A stretch of DNA of 64,000 bases, from positions 1 to 64,000 of the forward strand of contig JANWWZ010000015.1 of the NCBI GenBank assembly GCA_025057115.1, given 5' to 3'. The stretch's first letter is position 1; the number at the start of each line of letters is the position of its first letter. Under the pieces are notes generated by a model. That model was not told the DNA's origin and ran no database searches. It was given only the letters and a program-made list of their open reading frames with translations. Of the stretch, positions 36,072 to 46,610 are shown one piece after another. The position numbers and the translations under genes were made by a program. Source of the DNA: Bernardetiaceae bacterium (GTDB lineage: Bacteria; Bacteroidota; Bacteroidia; Cytophagales; Thermoflexibacteraceae).

Positions 36072-39000
36072 CTATTCTACTATTTTCACTCGGATGCCTT
36101 TGGAATGGCTAGTGAATTCTGGAGCGTACATGCATTGAGCTGTGGCTACGCCGTTGGAAAAATCGCCTACTTGGCTAGCGCGCAAGCTGTATTCAATAAC
36201 CGAAGTTCCCTTAGGCAGCCAGCTGAAGAAAAAGTCAATAGCACTGTCGCGAATGTTCCTGTAACATTCCGTGTAGTCATCATAACCACTTTGAGTATCT
36301 AGGGGCTCAAAAGCAGCAGCGCGCATGTCCTTGAGATGAACGTACTCCATAGGACGATCAGCTTGCAATTCAATCCGCACTCTTATTTTATCACCGATTT
36401 TCACCAGCGTTTGCTCAGTGAGAGGCTGGAGAACTATTCCTTTTTCGGTAACGCGTTCGATGTAAAGTTGCTTGCTCAACTTAAGGGGTGTTTCAGCAGG
36501 GGTCACTTTGTCCAAGCTCTCAAAATACTGCCAGTATAAACTACCCCAAGCAATGCCCTTACCGAACTTGGTAATAGTTACCTTACCCATTTCAGGGTTG
36601 ATTTCCTTGCCAGTCCATTTGACTTGGAAGTAGCCCGTTCCTGCTTCTACTTTTATTTGCTCCATTTTGGCAGGGTTAATCTCTTGAGAGCCTACGTAAA
36701 TATTTGCCGTAGCTGGTTCGGTGAGCCAATTGTCTCCTTGCAACAAAAGGGCGTAAATGGCTTCTGCCGTAGCTTTGGTAGTGGACCAATCTTGGGTTTG
36801 TTTTTGCTTCAGCAGCCAAATTTTTAGGTCGTTAACTGCTCTGTCGTCGCTGGCGACCTCACTGAAAACCTCAATCATAAGCGATTGAGTTTCAATAGGC
36901 AATTCATACCACCAATAGCCGTAGTTGGCTTTCCAGTACATGCCCATTTCCTGATTTATAATAGCGCGCTCTTTTAGTGATTGGGCAATGGTTTGGGCTA
37001 TTGCTTTCCTACCATTGCGATGCAAGGTAAGGGCTGCCATTCCTTGTACGTAAAGCCCTGCCTTATTCCAATGCTTTTCAGCTTGGTTCAAAAAATAGTT
37101 GATAGCTGTTTTGTATTCTGGCTTTGAGGGTTTGATATCGAGAAAAAAGCTACGGGCATATAAATAGTGATAGGCTTCATAGCTAATGTTCAAATCTGCC
37201 AGCTTGATTTTTCCTTCTTTCTCCATTTTTTGAAGCCGTTGGTAATCTTCAAAAATTTGCCGGTCGAGGAACTTAAGCGCTCGTAGTGCTATTTCATAAG
37301 CTGTATTAGGCTTAGTTAAAAGAGAATGAGGTTGAACATTAGCCAGTGCATCGGGAGAGAGATTAATGACTCCTAAGTGCTTGAGATGACCCAGCCCTGC
37401 TAGGATGTGCTGCGTTACCCATCGGCTTGCAGGCATTCCCTCAAACCAAGGGAAGCTACCATCGGAGTATTGTATTCTCTCCAACTTGGCAAGGGCATTT
37501 TCCAGCTCCTGACTCATGCGCACAAGGTCGAAGAGAACAGCAATAGTGCGCTTGCGGTCAGCTTCGTTGAAGGCTTGGCGCACCCATGGAGTTTCCTGCA
37601 AGAGTAAGTATTTCAACCATTCATTTTTTTGCAAGTTAGAAGCCAGAGCAGAGCCACCTTCTTGCTTTTGCCAAGCATCAAATACTTCCTTAATTTTTGG
37701 ATGGCTGTTTACTATATGCGCAGCAATGCTATTGGCATAAAATCGGCTAAAAGTTTGTTCGGCGCACTCGTGTGGATACTCCATCAGGTAAGGTAGTGCT
37801 TGTAAGGCATACCAAGTCGGATTGTTAGTAAATTCAAAAGTAAGGCTGTGGTGTTGTAAACTCTGGCTGGTGAGATGAGTTAAATTCTTCAGTTCAAAGG
37901 TTTTGGTTTGCCCATCCCGAACAGATAAGGGCAAAGTTTCCGTAAGCAAGATTCGGTCAGTGAGCACGGGTAGGGTCCTTTCCTCTCCATCGGAAAAGCT
38001 ACCTGCTCTGGCGACGATGCGGTAAGTAATTGCCTGTACCGTTTCATTTGGAATTTGTATTTCCCATTTGAGGGGGATGCTCTGACCTTGAGCCACAACA
38101 AAGGTTTTCTTAGAGCGCATTTGAGCAATAGCTTCAGCAGACATGGCTTCTACCATGCGAGGGTACATTTGTACATCAATCGGCTGCATGGTAATTGCAT
38201 CAAAAAATTGAATTTGCGCCTCTCCGCTAAGAGCATGATCGCTTAGGTTAATGATTTTAGCAGTAAAAGTCATTTGATCGCCCTGGCGGAAGAAACGCGG
38301 CGGATTAGGGGCTATCATCAGCTCTTTTTGTGTTACTACCTCCTTTTGTACAAAGCCGTAGCGCATGTCTTTTTTATGCGCAAAGCCCAACAGTTTCCAA
38401 CGGGTAAGCGACTCGGGGACTGTAAATTGAATAATCAGGTTGCCTTCTTCATCGGTCTGCAGGTGGGGATAGAAAAATGCCGTTTCTCTAAAGTCGCGCC
38501 GTATGGAAACTTGAGTGGGTTCTTTCGCTTCCATGGGAAGCACTTGGGTGGATTTTTCCCCTTCCTCTAGGCGAGTTGATTCAGCTACTCCACTACCATT
38601 TGCCTCAATGCTCTCAGCTCTTTCTGTGCCATTTCTTAGGCTACGCATGACGCGGCTGTCATATAGGTCAGGGTCATAATCATAGAACTCGCCATCTGAC
38701 TCATCATAGAGAAAACGTCGGAGGTAATTGTCTACTATTTTCTCGTCAAGCCATCGAAGTTGATCGTAGTAGCGCACTTGTAGGCTGCCTACATCTGGAT
38801 TATTGCCCATGAGGCTAAAAAGTTGCTTGCCGAATTTTTTTTCATACCAACTATGGGCGATGCCAAATAAAGGCGGTTCGGGAAAATAAAAGTTGTGCTT
38901 TTCAAAGGCGTCTAATGAAGCGTCGTAGAGCGTTGCCACCATTTCAGCCGTAGCGCGATCTGCTGTGCCATCTCTGTTGCTAATTTTTAGGCGCCATTCC

Positions 39001-42000
39001 TCTTTCTGGCCAGGATTGAGCTTGTTGCGGAAGGTTTCAAAAGTGATGTTAAGTTGTTTATCGGTATGGGGTACTTGTATTAGCCGATTGAATTGATAAA
39101 AGCGCCCATTGCGAATCATAGTAACGCGCATGGCTACGTTGCCTGTGTGCCTTTGCTCAATAGCAAAGGTTTGAATCTGCACTTGATTGTTTATTTTTAA
39201 CCAATGAGAAGAAGCCACTTGCTCGGCTACTTCCGTTTCGTAGCGAATATAGGCATCTGTAAAACTACTTCCGATTTGCCAGCGCGCTACGTCAGAAGGT
39301 TCTACTACTTCATCGCTTCCATTCACCGATGGCAAATTTGCTGTCCACAGCGCAATGGGGTAAGGGGGGGGTCCACTTTTCTGGGAATACACCGTAAAAT
39401 AACTGCGACTTATTACATCGCTGCCGAAGGGGTCTTTAGCACTAATTTCCAAGAGATACCCTCCAACTTCTTGCAAAGGCAGAGTTATTTCGGGTTGTTT
39501 TTGCGTATCAAAGTTGTATGAAATAACGGTTTTCTCTACTTCCCAGTTAGGCATTATATCTTCGCTGGCGTAGGGGTCATTGGGAAACAGCTTGTAAAAC
39601 TCTTCTTTGCTCATTGCAAACAAGTCTGGAGGTTCCCATAAGCGCTGCCGAAAAATGCGGTCAGGAGACTTGAGTTTGATGAGTTTGGCAGTACCTTGTA
39701 TGGCAATATTTTGCTGCTCGGCATTTAAAGCCATAATCTTCACTTGCTGGCTGCCTTTTTCTAGTGCAACTTTTTCTGGGATTTCTGCATTGAGTCTAAT
39801 GGCTTGGTGACCGATAAAAATATTCTTTGTTGCGCTTTGCGTCTCGCCATTAATGTCAGTTACTTCTACGGTGATTTCAAAATTAAACACAGGTTGCAAG
39901 CTGCTGGCAATGGTCTTATCAGGCAGGGCAGAAAACCGAATGCTAAACTTTCCTTGCTGAGAAGTTTTCAAGGTGCCTGATGCAATTTCGGTAGGGGTTT
40001 CTTGGACGTATCGCTCCCACCACCAAGCACTGACATAGTATGGCTTCCGCACAACGCGGTACTTTACTGTAGCATTGTCAAGGGCGGCTCCTGAATAGGC
40101 TTGGGCAATTCCCGTAACTTCTACTTGCTGACCCAACTTAACCGCCTGAGCCAGTGAATTGATGTTTACTTCAAAATTAGGTCGCTTGTATTCTTCCACC
40201 CTTAAGCGTTGCGCAGTTTGAAGTGCAGTGAGGTATATTTTACCGAGAGGGATATTAGTAGGAATGAGAAAACTTCCACTTCCACTGCCAAATTCGTTAA
40301 TTGTAACTTCTTGGCTTGCTAGCGAATCTTGGGAATAGTTTTTGAGTGAAACAATTACTTTTCCCGCATTTTTCACAGGACGGCGTTGACCGTTAAATTG
40401 TTTAGTGAGCAGGATTTTATAATAAATAGTTTGTCCAGGTCGGTAAATGCTGCGATCCGTAAAAAAGTGAACGCTGGTAGTGGTATCCTCTTTAGCAGTA
40501 GAATAATAATCTGCATTAGAAGCAAATATGACGTTGTTTTGCGAGGCATTGTCTAGGCGATCTTTCCCGTTGGGATGGATAAAGTTAATGAGGACGTATC
40601 CATAAGAGGAGGTCTCAAAATCAATAGGTTTTGTTTCAATATATCGCTCAACGCGCACCATTCCTTCTGCATCAGTGGTAAGGGTTTGGTACAATAGGCT
40701 TTTGTAGCGGGATCGACGGTAGTTATATTGTTGCAAAATCACTTCTACCTTTGCTCCAGCAATAGGCGCTCCTGTGGTGCGATCAACGAGTAGGTACTCT
40801 AAAAAATTGTTCCGAGTGCGCTCTACAAAAGCCATGTCGCTAATGGTGATCACGGCATAGGCTACCTTCTTGCCTTCGTTGTTACTTTCAAATGTCGGAT
40901 TGTTTGCAAGAACAAGTAAATACTTGCCCCAAGAAAGCGCTGGAGCGGCTATTTCGACAGCATGTTTTTGCATATCGCCTTCGTCGGGAGGCAGGGTTAC
41001 CCTCCAAGTGATGCCATCTTGAGCAATTAAGTTTTGTATATCTTTTCTAGAGCCTTCTTCCTCTATTTTCTGCCAATCTTGGTCGGTTAAAGAAATAGCT
41101 TTGCACCAGAGTTTTGACAAGTTTCTGTAAGTTAGCAAAAAGCGAAAAGGTTGGTTGGCAGCATTGACGGCTTCCACCTCAACAGAGAAACTATCTTCCT
41201 TCAGTTGCCGGATTAGCCTTTGGCAGTTGTTTGCCCCTTGCGTGTTCGGGTATTTTTTAACAGTACTTTCTGCAATTTCTAAGGCTGTTTTTAGCATGAA
41301 GCGATGAGGATCACCGGGTATTAAACGGTTGAATTTTTGTCCTCTTTCCAGGTAGAGGGCTGCTTGCTCATATGCAAAATCAGCTACAAGAGGAGTGTTG
41401 GCGTAAGTCTTTTGCGCTTGAATTAATGCTTGTTCATATGCCTCGTCTTTATCGGATAAAGTGGCATACTTGTACATGAGCTCGAGGCGTTTTAGGTCTA
41501 AATCCGCCAATGCTTCCCAATGGTTGGACCGTCGGTGGAATGTTGCTAGCTGTTGCAGAATAATGATAGCAGAAAGCTGCGTATTGGCAGTGTCTTTGGT
41601 GTCGAAGGTGAGTTTTTCAAACTGAGAGAGCGGAGCAAACAACTCCACAGCGTTGATTTCAAAATTGTGCGCTGTTTTTTCGTAATTAGCTTCAGGTTGG
41701 ATGAGATAATCAATAGCAGCATGTGCTAAAAAGTCGTAAAGAGTAGGGCGATAGCGATGAGTAGGGCTTATTTTTAAATCGCTTTCGCTGGGATTTACTT
41801 CTGTACTGAACAGCTCGCGCCACTGTTGTATGGGAATTTTTTGCAAGCTATCCGCATCTTCCAAAGATGCCAAGTATAGGCGGTGAATTTCTGCTTTTAA
41901 CTTTTTGGCACTCCATTTTAACGGGTTAGAGGAGGTGTCTTCCTCAACTAAAAAATAGTCATCTGATATTTGCCGAGAGTAATGAATGTAGTTCTCTGCC

Positions 42001-42365
42001 AAGAAGTAATAAAGCAGTTGTTTAACAGGAGTGGGTTGTTGCTGGGCTTCTTGGTATATGGCTTTAAATAACTTTTGTTCATCTTCTTCAACATCGGCGC
42101 GCAAGTAAATTTCTTGCATAAATGCTTTTACTTGTTGAGGGTAGTTCTTCTGTGCAACGGCGTGGTGGTAGATCTCTTTCACTTTAGCAAGTGCTTGTTT
42201 TTCAAGCCCTTCCTCTAGAAGAGAGTCCACCAATTTCCACATGTGGCGGTAGTAGAGCGAGTCAGTAGGCATAGGAGCGGTTAATCGGTTAGATGAAGGT
42301 ATTTGCAGGGAAGCCATTCCTAGCCACAAGGATACTAAGCTCCAAAAAAGTGAGAAAAAGTACAT
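36072..42365 (-). CDS. Bacterial alpha-2-macroglobulin family protein with thioester motif
   Basis: A 2097-residue exported protein from the ATG at 42365 (signal peptide MYFFSLFWSLVSLWLGM; no lipobox Cys). An N-terminal helical repeat region (about 40-390) precedes the macroglobulin part: a carboxypeptidase-regulatory-like strand region (RTTGAPIAGAKVEVI), the MG2 motif FTDRSIYRPGQ near 635-645, a low-complexity Asp/Glu/Ser-rich linker near 1240-1290 that could be the bait region, the A2M domain, and CAEQ at 1534-1537, the CxEQ thioester motif, followed by the helical thioester domain. Such proteins trap proteases in the periplasm or at the surface. The Cys and Gln needed for the thioester are present. 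No penicillin-binding protein partner gene is adjacent, unlike the E. coli pair. Confidence 0.9.
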   Translation of the reverse strand: MYFFSLFWSLVSLWLGMASLQIPSSNRLTAPMPTDSLYYRHMWKLVDSLLEEGLEKQALAKVKEIYHHAVAQKNYPQQVKAFMQEIYLRADVEEDEQKLFKAIYQEAQQQPTPVKQLLYYFLAENYIHYSRQISDDYFLVEEDTSSNPLKWSAKKLKAEIHRLYLASLEDADSLQKIPIQQWRELFSTEVNPSESDLKISPTHRYRPTLYDFLAHAAIDYLIQPEANYEKTAHNFEINAVELFAPLSQFEKLTFDTKDTANTQLSAIIILQQLATFHRRSNHWEALADLDLKRLELMYKYATLSDKDEAYEQALIQAQKTYANTPLVADFAYEQAALYLERGQKFNRLIPGDPHRFMLKTALEIAESTVKKYPNTQGANNCQRLIRQLKEDSFSVEVEAVNAANQPFRFLLTYRNLSKLWCKAISLTDQDWQKIEEEGSRKDIQNLIAQDGITWRVTLPPDEGDMQKHAVEIAAPALSWGKYLLVLANNPTFESNNEGKKVAYAVITISDMAFVERTRNNFLEYLLVDRTTGAPIAGAKVEVILQQYNYRRSRYKSLLYQTLTTDAEGMVRVERYIETKPIDFETSSYGYVLINFIHPNGKDRLDNASQNNVIFASNADYYSTAKEDTTTSVHFFTDRSIYRPGQTIYYKILLTKQFNGQRRPVKNAGKVIVSLKNYSQDSLASQEVTINEFGSGSGSFLIPTNIPLGKIYLTALQTAQRLRVEEYKRPNFEVNINSLAQAVKLGQQVEVTGIAQAYSGAALDNATVKYRVVRKPYYVSAWWWERYVQETPTEIASGTLKTSQQGKFSIRFSALPDKTIASSLQPVFNFEITVEVTDINGETQSATKNIFIGHQAIRLNAEIPEKVALEKGSQQVKIMALNAEQQNIAIQGTAKLIKLKSPDRIFRQRLWEPPDLFAMSKEEFYKLFPNDPYASEDIMPNWEVEKTVISYNFDTQKQPEITLPLQEVGGYLLEISAKDPFGSDVISRSYFTVYSQKSGPPPYPIALWTANLPSVNGSDEVVEPSDVARWQIGSSFTDAYIRYETEVAEQVASSHWLKINNQVQIQTFAIEQRHTGNVAMRVTMIRNGRFYQFNRLIQVPHTDKQLNITFETFRNKLNPGQKEEWRLKISNRDGTADRATAEMVATLYDASLDAFEKHNFYFPEPPLFGIAHSWYEKKFGKQLFSLMGNNPDVGSLQVRYYDQLRWLDEKIVDNYLRRFLYDESDGEFYDYDPDLYDSRVMRSLRNGTERAESIEANGSGVAESTRLEEGEKSTQVLPMEAKEPTQVSIRRDFRETAFFYPHLQTDEEGNLIIQFTVPESLTRWKLLGFAHKKDMRYGFVQKEVVTQKELMIAPNPPRFFRQGDQMTFTAKIINLSDHALSGEAQIQFFDAITMQPIDVQMYPRMVEAMSAEAIAQMRSKKTFVVAQGQSIPLKWEIQIPNETVQAITYRIVARAGSFSDGEERTLPVLTDRILLTETLPLSVRDGQTKTFELKNLTHLTSQSLQHHSLTFEFTNNPTWYALQALPYLMEYPHECAEQTFSRFYANSIAAHIVNSHPKIKEVFDAWQKQEGGSALASNLQKNEWLKYLLLQETPWVRQAFNEADRKRTIAVLFDLVRMSQELENALAKLERIQYSDGSFPWFEGMPASRWVTQHILAGLGHLKHLGVINLSPDALANVQPHSLLTKPNTAYEIALRALKFLDRQIFEDYQRLQKMEKEGKIKLADLNISYEAYHYLYARSFFLDIKPSKPEYKTAINYFLNQAEKHWNKAGLYVQGMAALTLHRNGRKAIAQTIAQSLKERAIINQEMGMYWKANYGYWWYELPIETQSLMIEVFSEVASDDRAVNDLKIWLLKQKQTQDWSTTKATAEAIYALLLQGDNWLTEPATANIYVGSQEINPAKMEQIKVEAGTGYFQVKWTGKEINPEMGKVTITKFGKGIAWGSLYWQYFESLDKVTPAETPLKLSKQLYIERVTEKGIVLQPLTEQTLVKIGDKIRVRIELQADRPMEYVHLKDMRAAAFEPLDTQSGYDDYTECYRNIRDSAIDFFFSWLPKGTSVIEYSLRASQVGDFSNGVATAQCMYAPEFTSHSKGIRVKIVE

Positions 42366-42473
42366 ACGCAATTCCAATTTATGAACTAATTTATCTAAGG
42401 TGCAGGTGCTAGCTTCGAGCCATCTAGCAAAGCTGCCTTGAAACAATCCCAAATCATACCAAATTATCAAAAA

Positions 42474-43574
42474 ATGGGGATTTTTAACATTTTTTCAAAC
42501 ATTCACAGGGCGCAGACGCTACCTAAAGAGTTTTACACTGAACCTGCGTACTTTGAAGTGTCTAAAGAAAGAATTTTTGCCTGTTCATGGCAATGGGTTG
42601 GTGATAATTCAGCAGTGCAATTTCCTCAACAAGTGCAGCCTTTCACCTTGCTGGAAGGCTATTTAAACGAACCGTTATTGCTTGTCCGCGATGAAAATAA
42701 CCTCCTACATTGCTTGAGCAATGTTTGCACGCATCGCGGTAAAATACTCGTAGAGCAGCCAGGCAAGTGTCGCAAAATTATTTGCGGCTATCATGGACGG
42801 CGGTTTGCCCTCAACGGTCAGTTTGAATACATGCCAGATTTTAAAAACGTAGAAAATTTTCCTTCTCCTGAAGATAATTTAGCGCAAGTAAAATTGATAC
42901 AGTGGCATAGATTTCTGTTTGTATCGCTTGCACCGCAATGGGATCTCCTCCCCGTACTTGCTGAAATTGATCGGCGCATCAGTTTTTTGGACTTCTCCCG
43001 TTTCCGATATGACCCTCTTACTTCAAGAGATTATCTGGTACGAGCCCATTGGGCGCTCTACTGCGAAAATTACTTGGAAGGTTTTCACATTCCCTTTGTA
43101 CATCCAGACTTAAATCAATTCCTAGACGTTGCCACTTACAGCACAGAAATTTACGACTTTATGAACTTGCAAATAGGTTACGCAAACAAAGGTTCAGATT
43201 GCTTTGACTTGCCCAAGGAACATCCCGATCAAGGCAAGGAGGTGGCTGCTTACTACTTTTGGATATTTCCCAACTTAATGTTGAACTTTTATCCTTGGGG
43301 GCTTTCCGTCAATGTAGTCAAACCCCTGCAACTTAACTTGTGCAAAGTGAGCTTCATTACTTACGTTTACGATCCTCAGCGGTTTACCCAAACAGTGGCA
43401 GCCCAAACCGACAAAGTAGAACGAGAAGACGAAGCAGTAGTAGAAAGTGTTCAGCAAGGCATTTATTCGCGGTTCTACAAGGCAGGTCGTTATTCTCCAA
43501 GGTACGAAACCGGTGTGCACCACTTTCATCAATTAATTGCCCGGTGCATGAACAATATACAAAATATTCAATAA
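42474..43574 (+). CDS. Rieske non-heme iron oxygenase, alpha-subunit type
   Basis: A 366-residue protein from the ATG at 42474; a TTG 12 codons upstream is less likely. Rieske [2Fe-2S] ligands: Cys85 and His87 (CTHRGK), Cys104 and His107 (CGYHGRRF). The catalytic mononuclear iron site follows in NYLEGFHIPFVH, with a later Asp in EREDEAV. This is a ring-hydroxylating or N-demethylating oxygenase large subunit, closest in appearance to the glycine-betaine/carnitine monooxygenase type. No ferredoxin or reductase gene is adjacent, so electrons must come from elsewhere. It is divergent from the macroglobulin gene and 31 bases before the sensor-kinase-like gene. Substrate unknown. Confidence 0.85.
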   Translation: MGIFNIFSNIHRAQTLPKEFYTEPAYFEVSKERIFACSWQWVGDNSAVQFPQQVQPFTLLEGYLNEPLLLVRDENNLLHCLSNVCTHRGKILVEQPGKCRKIICGYHGRRFALNGQFEYMPDFKNVENFPSPEDNLAQVKLIQWHRFLFVSLAPQWDLLPVLAEIDRRISFLDFSRFRYDPLTSRDYLVRAHWALYCENYLEGFHIPFVHPDLNQFLDVATYSTEIYDFMNLQIGYANKGSDCFDLPKEHPDQGKEVAAYYFWIFPNLMLNFYPWGLSVNVVKPLQLNLCKVSFITYVYDPQRFTQTVAAQTDKVEREDEAVVESVQQGIYSRFYKAGRYSPRYETGVHHFHQLIARCMNNIQNIQ

Positions 43575-43605
43575 AGTTAGTAAATTGAGCTAAATTATAT
43601 GCGCC

Positions 43606-45846
43606 ATGAAATGCTCAAAAGCAATTGTCTTCCGCAGCGAAAAGGAGCTTTTTCGGGCAATTGCATTTTTAGTACTGCTAACATTACTCAGCGCTCCAAA
43701 GTTGATTTTTGCTCAAAAAGCAGAGTATAAAGTAGAAATTCTTAGCGAGGAAGGTACTTTCCTTCCTTTAGACGGGAATTTAGTATTCAACAAACAAGAA
43801 GTGGCTACCATTCGCAAAGGAAAGGGTTTAGTATTACTGCCTCGCAGCGCCCAATGGATTTTTGATATCAAAGCCAATTTGCAAACCGATGGCACCATTC
43901 TATACCAGCCCATTTATAAAGGATGGACTATCAACAAGGAAAAAAACGTTATTCACGTTAAACTGCAAAAAGTGCGACCCGTAACTTTGGTAATTACTTA
44001 TCCCAACAGCAAACCTGTAAAAAAAGCTACTGTAGTCTTCAAAGGTCCCAACAATAGCGATACGTTGCAGCTAGAAGATGCCAATAATGGACTAATTAAA
44101 TTTATCGTGCCCGACCACGTGAACTTCTTTACTGATAAGAGCTATGCTTTTTTAGTAGATGGAGTACCTGCTACTGTAACTTCTGAACAAAATAACATTG
44201 TTAGAATCACAGCGGAATATCCTCAAGTGGCGGGAAGAAAATCCTCTATAGGCACGCCAACCTCAGAAGAAGCGCGTCTTATGTTGATAGACCACTCTTC
44301 TAAACAACCCTTAGCCCATAAAAAATTTCAGGTAGGCGACCAAACTTTAGTTACTGATGAAAATGGGATCCTTAGTGTTGCCATTACTAACGACTTGGAT
44401 ATCAAAAATTACGACATTATTAACCAAGTTGTAGATGAGAAAGCTGGAGTGGTTAAATTATTCATCAAATACAATCGACACCTTACAACTGAAGCAGATC
44501 CAAACCTTGATGCGGAGATGCTTTCTCTAGAGTCCCAATTAGAAGCCCTTATCAAGATACTTGGGGAACGCAATCACCTCATGGAGCAGACCATAGAAAA
44601 AATCAAATTGCGCATCAATGCTGACCGCAGCTTTACCAAAGAGCAACGCGAACGACTTAACCGCCAAATTCAAATCTTGGAAAATATCACCAACCAGAAC
44701 GACATTGCTTATAGAAAAGCACACCAAGAAATTAAGAATATTCTTAGCCAAATTGGCAAAAAGCCGCTGCTGACTGACACCATCATGGAAAGAGAACTTT
44801 CGATGATGAACGAAAAACTCAAACAGGTGGAGCAGGATAGACAACGCATCATGCAAGAACAACGTCAGTCGGAGGAAAAGTCTAGGCGTCAATTGATTGC
44901 CATTTCTAGTGTAGCCTTTTTGCTACTCCTGCTGGCAATGATATTTTTCCTAATTGGCAAAAACATCAAACGCCAGAAAGAAGAGCTTGCCCGCAGAATG
45001 GAAGAAATTAAACAGCAAAATGAAAAAATACGCCAGCAAAACGAACTTTTACTTACCCAGCAAGAAGAAATTGCCCGAAAAAACCTTCGCTTGAAAGAGC
45101 TCAACGAAGAGAAAAATAGCTTAGTGGACATCGTAGCACGGGATCTTAAATCGTCTCTTAGCAAAGTAGCCAACGTTGCGCAACTTTTACCCGTAGTAGG
45201 CGAATTAAACCAAGACCAACGCAATTATGTCGATATAATTCGCAAAGCTGCTTTAGAAGGTACGCGCTTTATTGACGACCTGCTGGATATCAACGCCATT
45301 GAACAAGGACAGACTGCCGCTCTATCTCCTGAAAAAATTAGCTTAGCCATCTTTCTGCCTGAACTGCTTAGAAGTTTTCGCACGCAAGCAGATAGAAAAA
45401 ACATTCGCTTGCACTTCCAGAACAATGCCGAAGATGGAATTATTTACACTGACAGAGAATATCTCCGACGTGTGGTAGAAAATCTTATATCTAATGCAAT
45501 TAAGTTTTCTCCTCAAGGCAAAGATGTTTACTTAAAAATCAGAACCCTTGACGAATACTGTTGCATTTCAGTAAAAGACGAAGGTCCAGGTCTTACAGAG
45601 GAAGACCACAAGCGACTTTTCAAAAAGTTTCAGCGGCTTTCGGCAAAACCTACTGGCGGCGAGAATTCAACAGGCTTGGGGTTAGCTATTGCCAAACTCT
45701 TAGTGCATCGATTAGGAGGTAGTATAGCCGTAAGCAGTATACCCAACAAGGGAGCTGAATTTACCGTCATGCTTCCTAAAACTTCTCTACCTGCAAAAGC
45801 CGATCAAGAACCAAGCATTCAACAACCTACCCTAAATTTTGCTTAA
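43606..45846 (+). CDS. Sensor histidine kinase-like protein lacking the phosphoacceptor His
   Basis: A 746-residue membrane protein: signal segment (about 18-36), beta-rich periplasmic repeats (about 40-310) resembling carboxypeptidase-regulatory folds, a long helical region (315-427), a membrane segment (about 430-452), a cytoplasmic coiled coil (453-505), a HisKA-like helix pair, and a HATPase domain (about 615-730) with ENLISNAIKFSP, VKDEGPGL and NSTGLGLAIAKL. Where relatives read AHDLKSPL, this protein reads ARDLKSSL: residue 512 is Arg (codon CGG at 45139-45141). The ATP-binding site looks intact but the residue normally phosphorylated is missing. It may signal by another route, act as a regulator of another kinase, or be decaying. 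No response regulator gene is next to it. Confidence 0.85.
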   Translation: MKCSKAIVFRSEKELFRAIAFLVLLTLLSAPKLIFAQKAEYKVEILSEEGTFLPLDGNLVFNKQEVATIRKGKGLVLLPRSAQWIFDIKANLQTDGTILYQPIYKGWTINKEKNVIHVKLQKVRPVTLVITYPNSKPVKKATVVFKGPNNSDTLQLEDANNGLIKFIVPDHVNFFTDKSYAFLVDGVPATVTSEQNNIVRITAEYPQVAGRKSSIGTPTSEEARLMLIDHSSKQPLAHKKFQVGDQTLVTDENGILSVAITNDLDIKNYDIINQVVDEKAGVVKLFIKYNRHLTTEADPNLDAEMLSLESQLEALIKILGERNHLMEQTIEKIKLRINADRSFTKEQRERLNRQIQILENITNQNDIAYRKAHQEIKNILSQIGKKPLLTDTIMERELSMMNEKLKQVEQDRQRIMQEQRQSEEKSRRQLIAISSVAFLLLLLAMIFFLIGKNIKRQKEELARRMEEIKQQNEKIRQQNELLLTQQEEIARKNLRLKELNEEKNSLVDIVARDLKSSLSKVANVAQLLPVVGELNQDQRNYVDIIRKAALEGTRFIDDLLDINAIEQGQTAALSPEKISLAIFLPELLRSFRTQADRKNIRLHFQNNAEDGIIYTDREYLRRVVENLISNAIKFSPQGKDVYLKIRTLDEYCCISVKDEGPGLTEEDHKRLFKKFQRLSAKPTGGENSTGLGLAIAKLLVHRLGGSIAVSSIPNKGAEFTVMLPKTSLPAKADQEPSIQQPTLNFA

Positions 45847-45919
45847 AAGACTGTCGAACTCAATCTAGCAACCTACTACTGCTTACCCAATTGAGGAAAG
45901 GGGAAAAAGTCGTTTTTTT

Positions 45920-46540
45920 TTACGCAAAGAGCTCTACTACCTCTTTGCCTTGCGGCAAATGCAATGCCTGCAAACCTGCTTTGCGCGCTCCTTCCACATG
46001 CTGAAGCGTGTCATCGATAAAGAGAGTTTCTTGTGGTTTTAACCCATGCTTTTCTATTAAGTAGAGAAAAATTTCCGCGTTAGGCTTGCGCATACCAAGC
46101 AAATGAGAATAATAGTCCTGTTCAAAAAAAGAGCTGAAACTCTCGATGCCATGCTGTTGTTGCATAAGACTGTCAAAAGCAGCTTTGTGGATGGCATTGG
46201 TGTTGCTCAGAAGAAAAATCCGCCGTTTTTTGCCTATCTCTTCAAGTAAAGCAAGCCTATGTTGAGGAAAATCTATTAGCATAGCGTTCCAACAGCGGTC
46301 TATTTCCGCATCACTCAAATCCGTTTGAAGTTCTTGGCGAAGCTGCTGACGAAATTGCTCGGGAGTAATTTTTCCGATTTCAAAAGCGTCAAACAAGGCA
46401 GACTGTTTGTGCTGGCTGTACCAGCGTGAAAAATCCTTGCCAATGGCTTCTGAAAAAGCGGCAATAGTGCGAGGAATATCTATGTTAAGAAGCACCCCTC
46501 CTAAGTCAAAAATAATGTTAGGGAAGTCTCTTGGAAGCAT
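45920..46540 (-). CDS. HAD-family phosphatase (YihX-like, subfamily IA)
   Basis: A 206-residue HAD hydrolase. Motif I FDLGGVLLNID with nucleophile Asp12; a helical cap (about 20-90); motif II FLLSNTNAIH; motif III/IV LGMRKPNAEIF and TLFIDDTLQHVEGARKAGL. This is the pattern of YihX-type sugar-phosphate phosphatases and other soluble HAD-IA enzymes; the substrate cannot be predicted. It is convergent with the sensor-kinase-like gene and divergent from the lipoprotein gene at 46611. Confidence 0.85.
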   Translation of the reverse strand: MLPRDFPNIIFDLGGVLLNIDIPRTIAAFSEAIGKDFSRWYSQHKQSALFDAFEIGKITPEQFRQQLRQELQTDLSDAEIDRCWNAMLIDFPQHRLALLEEIGKKRRIFLLSNTNAIHKAAFDSLMQQQHGIESFSSFFEQDYYSHLLGMRKPNAEIFLYLIEKHGLKPQETLFIDDTLQHVEGARKAGLQALHLPQGKEVVELFA

Positions 46541-46610
46541 TGCTTTTTGAATTTACTAGCCAAGTTGCGATAATTTTTTGTATTCTCGGCGGGGGAAGCT
46601 ATTTTTAGCC

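Follow-up and report, generated by a model that had tools for sequence, protein, structure and literature searches.

A putative pseudo-histidine kinase with Arg in place of the phosphoacceptor His, and a second His-less kinase in the same Bernardetiaceae genome

What a sensor kinase may still do once its phosphoacceptor His has been replaced is the question raised by a gene in the window analysed here, which is the whole stretch of 64,000 nucleotides from a Bernardetiaceae bacterium (genome G000). In the established chemistry of HisKA domains, Arg cannot accept a phosphoryl group in the usual way, and a homodimer of this protein would be incapable of autophosphorylation.

The kinase gene and its two replaced residues

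The features of the gene are collected in Table 1. With Pfam, HATPase_c was matched at 95.9 bits (cut-off 26.4), while HisKA reached 23.4 bits at residues 503-568, under its cut-off of 26.9, and yet the orthology to His-bearing kinases is clear. Judged as a HisKA kinase, the protein lacks the acceptor His and has the ATP-binding boxes of the CA domain. The sensor region (residues about 38-290) matched no Pfam family, no PAS family was among the Pfam matches of the protein, and NCBIfam gave no specific name, since the 25 matches listed of 71 were all under their cut-offs. No Rfam match to an RNA element was obtained in 42400-46600, and the promoter and terminator scan of 43400-46100, with sigma-70-type promoters only, found neither. 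The AlphaFold2 model (16 sequences; pLDDT 70.4, pTM 0.35) placed beta-strand domains at about 38-289, followed by helices and a coiled coil up to about 420, one long helix at 422-531 running through Arg512, and the CA domain further on. In the sensor region the pLDDT per block was mostly 70-87, with weak stretches, and the model appears safe for domain-level statements only.

Table 1. Features of the kinase gene and of its product, with positions in the window
Feature	Position	Strand	Remarks
Putative pseudo-histidine kinase gene	43606..45846	+	746 aa, stop codon included; open frame, HATPase_c, syntenic orthologues
Predicted periplasmic sensor, beta-strand domains	43717..44475	+	Residues about 38-290; AlphaFold2 model
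Transmembrane helix	44905..44958	+	Residues about 434-451; hydrophobic run within predicted helix
DHp (HisKA-like) domain	45076..45333	+	Residues 491-576; HisKA sub-cut-off, congener identity 79-81%
Codon CGG, Arg512 at phosphoacceptor His site	45139..45141	+	Read from sequence and alignment
Codon TCT, Ser517 at conserved Pro site (His+5)	45154..45156	+	Alignment
CA (ATP-binding) domain, boxes intact	45334..45783	+	Residues 577-726; Pfam HATPase_c at 616-726

The first-pass annotation had read ARDLKSSL where AHDLKSPL is expected, with the ATPase motifs all present, and both observations were borne out. Positions 45139-45141 are CGG and encode Arg512 within IVARDLKSSLSK. For an alignment with the window kinase, 16 closer relatives were picked from the 29 other loci matched, and a column from residue 490 onward was taken as near-invariant when at least 15 of the 16 relatives agreed. 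Among the 43 such columns, the window kinase departed at only two, H512R and P517S, and the same result was given by a second alignment. Since these were the only departures and none was in the CA domain, the ATPase motifs are present. The other 16 sequences departed at 0 to 8 of the near-invariant columns each; two departures are not many, and the unusual point is which two columns are concerned. Where the window kinase has CGG and TCT, the three congeners use CAT, CAT and CAC for His and CCG, CCT and CCG for Pro, respectively, which makes at least three base changes across the two codons, two of them in the His codon, without a frame shift. A pseudo-histidine kinase is a protein with the kinase fold that lacks a residue needed for kinase function, and the window protein has this fold and lacks the His; from its sequence we read it as a new member of this established kind.

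Orthologues 59-61% identical to the window kinase were found in three congeneric genomes (G001, G002 and G003), and beside all three the upstream Rieske oxygenase gene and the downstream HAD hydrolase gene are kept. The H-box of each is AHDLKSPL. For a wider comparison, 30 loci were taken among a larger number of matches listed, and the H-box was readable in 29 of them (L029 is a broken frame), with His in 27, Arg in the window kinase and Gln in one other, L030. In a further set of 75 loci, 37 were read, including L061-L063, which are records of earlier loci; the His motif was recognised by pattern in 36, and the remaining one, L065, has His in the alignment. Since the congeneric orthologues and the more distant relatives read have His, the residue was lost on the lineage to the window genome. 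The first-pass annotation had held that His in all orthologues at residue 512 would speak against its reading. His is indeed what was found, in 3/3 congeners and in the distant relatives read, and instead of removing the finding this dates the loss to the window lineage. At the same locus, G001 and G002 have between the kinase and HAD genes a further gene, which matches DUF4178 weakly and begins like a zinc ribbon. This gene is missing at window 45847-45919, where G003 shows a shorter frame only, and a search of G000 without a positive control gave no match to it.

A second His-less kinase in the same genome

PF02518 was matched 27 times in G000, and five of these matches are presumably not kinases (GyrB, MutL, HtpG, ParE-like and RsbW-like). 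In the other 22 kinases the His was recognisable in 20, five of which (L044, L046, L048, L049 and L053) were read by eye as the pattern did not fit. The second His-less kinase is L030 (also recorded as L039, L058 and L344:6476-8683), a TPR-sensor kinase on another contig (G000:C33:276475-278679). Its H-box is AQDLKLSV, with Gln at the His site and Ser in place of the Pro. The first-pass annotation had missed both the Pro loss of the window kinase and this second kinase. Besides itself, the window kinase matched only L030 in G000 at E <= 1e-30 (27 of 43 candidates scored). We take its neighbours to be an SRP54-like gene on one side and a cysteine-rich oxidoreductase-like gene on the other. Its orthologues in G001 and G002 read AHDLKTPL and keep the His, and G003 has no orthologue at E <= 1e-60. 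L030 departed at 6 of 41 near-invariant columns and its two orthologues at 0 and 4, and it is thereby less clean than the window kinase.

The congeners were compared through their best PF02518 matches (30 of 54 in G001, 30 of 36 in G002 and 30 of 39 in G003). After dropping the GyrB rows L225 and L250 and the short or interrupted frames L239, L240, L245, L253 and L255, His was present in all of the 83 remaining kinases (30, 29 and 24) within the best 30 per genome. The hypergeometric probability of 2/22 His-less kinases in G000 versus 0/83 in the congeners is 0.042, as a post hoc figure with orthologues treated as independent. In bacteria generally, HisKA domains without His make up 0.9% (722 of 76,471) according to the available part of PMC12632262. 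At this base rate the probability of at least two in 22 is 0.018, with the kinases taken as independent and all 22 assumed to be of the HisKA type, which not all of them are.

A maximum-likelihood tree was constructed from 105 DHp-CA sequences (22 G000 and 83 congener kinases). Both His-less kinases fell into one 12-row group with a support of 93/97, under the tool's mark for a sure branch, and each was placed inside its own orthologue group with a support of 100/99 and 100/100. The group was drawn from the kinases examined, and further congener kinases could belong to it. Its branching order is unsure since long branches were flagged, L181 and L182 among them. His and Pro are absent in both G000 members of the group and kept in the ten members from the three congeners. 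An ancestral loss common to both kinases was rejected, because the congeneric orthologues have His and the tree requires two changes; judged from these sequences, the two His losses are separate. It is unusual that both residues are lost in both subfamily members of one species while the orthologues in sister species are intact. The literature on pseudo-histidine kinases, searched by protein kind, does not show that such parallel loss is unreported, and nothing relevant was found on Arg replacement in histidine kinases of Bacteroidetes. The parallel loss in the nearest paralogue suggests that a whole signalling branch has been rewired or switched off here.

Two other stretches were observed in the congeners. 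At G003:C15:50-56 kb (L029, L245, L251 and L255) lies a kinase cluster with short or interrupted frames that is apparently decaying, two stretches of which were matched by the window kinase. At G001:C2:382-388 kb several kinase and receiver matches are packed densely, and among them L182, a frame of 408 aa that combines receiver and kinase domains, belongs to the same subfamily as the His-less kinases.

Conservation, partners and possible roles

Amino-acid identity to the congeners was 79-81% in the DHp domain, 69-71% in the CA domain, 66-69% in the coil, 62% in the membrane linker and 51-52% in the sensor, and the DHp domain was the most conserved of these five regions. In the DHp region, 13-16 of the 25 fourfold-degenerate third positions differed between the window gene and its congeners. 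With the specificity residues of EnvZ taken from the available text of PMC2991266, the helix-1 counterparts of T250, R251, L254, E257 and M258 were identical in the four species, and the counterpart of A255 had V for I. Altogether six of seven helix-1 positions (His+7, +8, +11, +12, +14, +15 and the phosphatase position +4) were identical, with this one V for I. Relative rates on the G000 branch were calculated for the 17 kinases matched in both G001 and G002, the window kinase included. For DHp the extremes were 0.41 and 5.27 (median 1.99), and for CA they were 0.42 and 6.37 (median 1.90); the lowest pair is that of L046, which shares 36% DHp identity with its G001 match and was probably paired with a wrong orthologue. 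With 2.26 for DHp the window kinase ranked 11 of 17, and its CA value, 1.90, is the median itself. Since both values are within the range of the 17 kinases, its evolution is not unusually fast, and the protein is not visibly decaying. If the His was lost late on the branch, this conservation would have been built up while the His was still there.

A response regulator adjoining the kinase gene was rejected as a partner, since the 24 receiver matches of G000 all lie outside its contig, C6. This contig has no other HATPase match. Pfam assigned two of the three flanking genes to the Rieske oxygenases and HAD hydrolases, and gave no family above cut-off for the gene at 46578. Upstream, a very large ORF (36072-42470, minus strand, 2132 aa), which we assume to be an alpha-2-macroglobulin-type protein, is also kept next to this locus in G002 and G003. 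Decay of a receiver in G000 was also rejected, as the phosphorylatable Asp is kept in 24/24 receiver domains (L136 included); the receiver comparison covered 115 of 116 matches, L341 of G003, a frame with stops, being left out. Three receiver groups common to the three congeners, those of L163, L280 and L282, have no reciprocal best match in G000, and a further group, L143, is matched by L136 at 94-96%. L163 is near a kinase (L223) and L280 is a hybrid kinase. L282 (L330 and L303 in the other congeners), presumably a LytTR regulator, has no kinase among its surrounding ORFs in G002 and is at most a candidate lost partner. The closest paralogue, considered as a natural His-bearing partner, was rejected because this paralogue, L030, is itself His-less.

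As the tentatively best explanation, the window protein may be a pseudo-histidine kinase that acts as a signal-gated negative regulator, a phosphatase or a sink, rather than as a phosphodonor. It would still sense through its periplasmic domain, dimerise and bind ATP, and would dock a presumed response regulator that its orthologues phosphorylate. The His+1 Asp and the His+4 Ser are kept. Without the Pro, the bent, asymmetric kinase state should be hindered; the helix kink behind asymmetric bending in CpxA is due to this conserved residue, and other kinases are also kinked by Pro, as described in the available part of PMC3904827. The phosphorylated regulator would then be dephosphorylated or sequestered, gated by the signal. 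This is our first choice since the kept ATP boxes, docking positions, Asp and Ser together with the lost Pro fit a symmetric, non-kinase docking. Thr at His+4 matters in HK853 and EnvZ; against the phosphatase reading, this position is Ser here and Ala in several relatives. In the accessible portions of the literature, the conserved His contributes to HisKA phosphatase activity and is not essential for it (PMC12632262). Against the phosphatase reading, removal of the His in HK853 H260A diminishes this activity (PMC5727384), DivL has neither kinase nor phosphatase activity (PMC4211667), and phosphatase activity as the general role of His-less kinases is argued against (PMC12632262). If the loss is recent, the conservation would reflect earlier selection. 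That both subfamily members of this one species were separately converted alike into regulator-reading pseudokinases, with loss of His and Pro, a retained ATP site and, for the window kinase at least, a retained docking surface, is a rather doubtful extension.

Nearly as likely as the phosphatase or sink reading is early erosion, in which the pathway would have lost its use, perhaps with its response regulator, as the genome shrank; the catalytic residues would have been the first to go, and the gene, now functionless, would be departing. At 3.0 Mb, G000 is smaller than its three congeners (3.3-4.0 Mb), and the subfamily has suffered losses elsewhere: G003 is without an L030 orthologue at the threshold given above, and five of its kinase frames are the short or interrupted ones dropped from the census, of which L245 lies within a stretch matched by the window kinase. 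The receiver L282/L330/L303 without a reciprocal best match in G000 and the six departures of L030 also agree with erosion. It is opposed by the mere two departures and ordinary rate of the window protein, the open frames of both His-less genes and the receiver Asp kept throughout G000. The first-pass annotation had suggested a regulator that binds another kinase or a ligand-gated scaffold; the docking positions, ATP boxes and ordinary rate fit this suggestion, but they also fit a recent loss with decay ahead, so that the suggestion has partial support.

Action through a heterodimer, in which the protein would use its intact CA domain to phosphorylate a different kinase on its His or would modulate that kinase, is less likely than these two, and we consider it improbable. 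The CA boxes and the 20 His-bearing kinases of the genome would allow it, and ChrS/HrrS heterodimers are described in the available part of PMC9491836; the lack of a second HATPase match on the contig and the His-less state of the nearest paralogue oppose it, and since both lack the His, the window kinase and L030 would be unable to phosphorylate each other. It is highly improbable that a residue nearby has taken over as phosphoacceptor or that another chemistry is used: Ser516, Ser517 and Ser519 are on the same helix, but Ser516 and Ser519 also occur in the His-bearing congeners, and the accessible portions of the histidine kinase literature consulted gave no HisKA precedent. An assembly or sequencing error, for which a sequence known from one genome of the species leaves room, is the least credible of all, because two codons are altered in frame, by three or more base changes, and the identical pair of losses recurs in a second kinase on another contig. 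A single-base error was rejected as unlikely, as two bases of codon 512 are changed and Pro517 became Ser.

Comparison with known systems

By fold, the nearest solved structures were HK853 complexes; of the 50 matches listed, DivL (4q20) took ranks 16-17 and RetS appeared from rank 24 onward. By sequence, DivL 4q20 was matched at 1.1e-20, ninth of 27 distinct sequences. These matches reflect the common kinase fold and are no evidence of a common role. Pseudo-histidine kinases are already known, and DivL is a natural precedent that is fixed across a wide group. If the conversion of both subfamily members is true, one genus would show a whole subfamily in the course of changing from donors to readers or phosphatases. 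Since the His-bearing orthologues occupy the same locus in the congeners, the forms before and after the loss can be compared side by side, and with a second, parallel case in this genome it can be tested directly whether acceptor loss leads to a regulator or is a mere prelude to gene loss.

DivL of Caulobacter resembles the window kinase in having a HisKA-type DHp and CA fold with the phosphoacceptor His replaced. According to the available text of PMC4211667, it carries Tyr where the His would be (one homologue has Ala), has PAS domains, binds ATP weakly, and binds a phosphorylated regulator specifically without kinase or phosphatase activity; its substitution is kept across alphaproteobacterial homologues. 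The window kinase has Arg at the site, no PAS match and intact ATP boxes, and its loss is found in one species only. RetS of Pseudomonas, the kinase-dead regulator of GacS, likewise uses the kinase fold as a regulator and not as a phosphodonor, whereas it keeps the His and has a degenerate HATPase (PMC5992135, as far as available), which is the reverse of the window kinase. The laboratory-evolved ChrS pseudokinase of Corynebacterium glutamicum also went from kinase to pseudokinase, and it gave a higher heme tolerance than the deletion via a paralogous kinase, as reported in the available part of PMC9491836; its CA domain was lost by frameshift, while the window kinase has an intact CA domain and has lost the acceptor. 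Compared with His-less HisKA domains in general, G000 differs in having two such proteins among its 22 kinases, which belong to a single subfamily and also lack the Pro.
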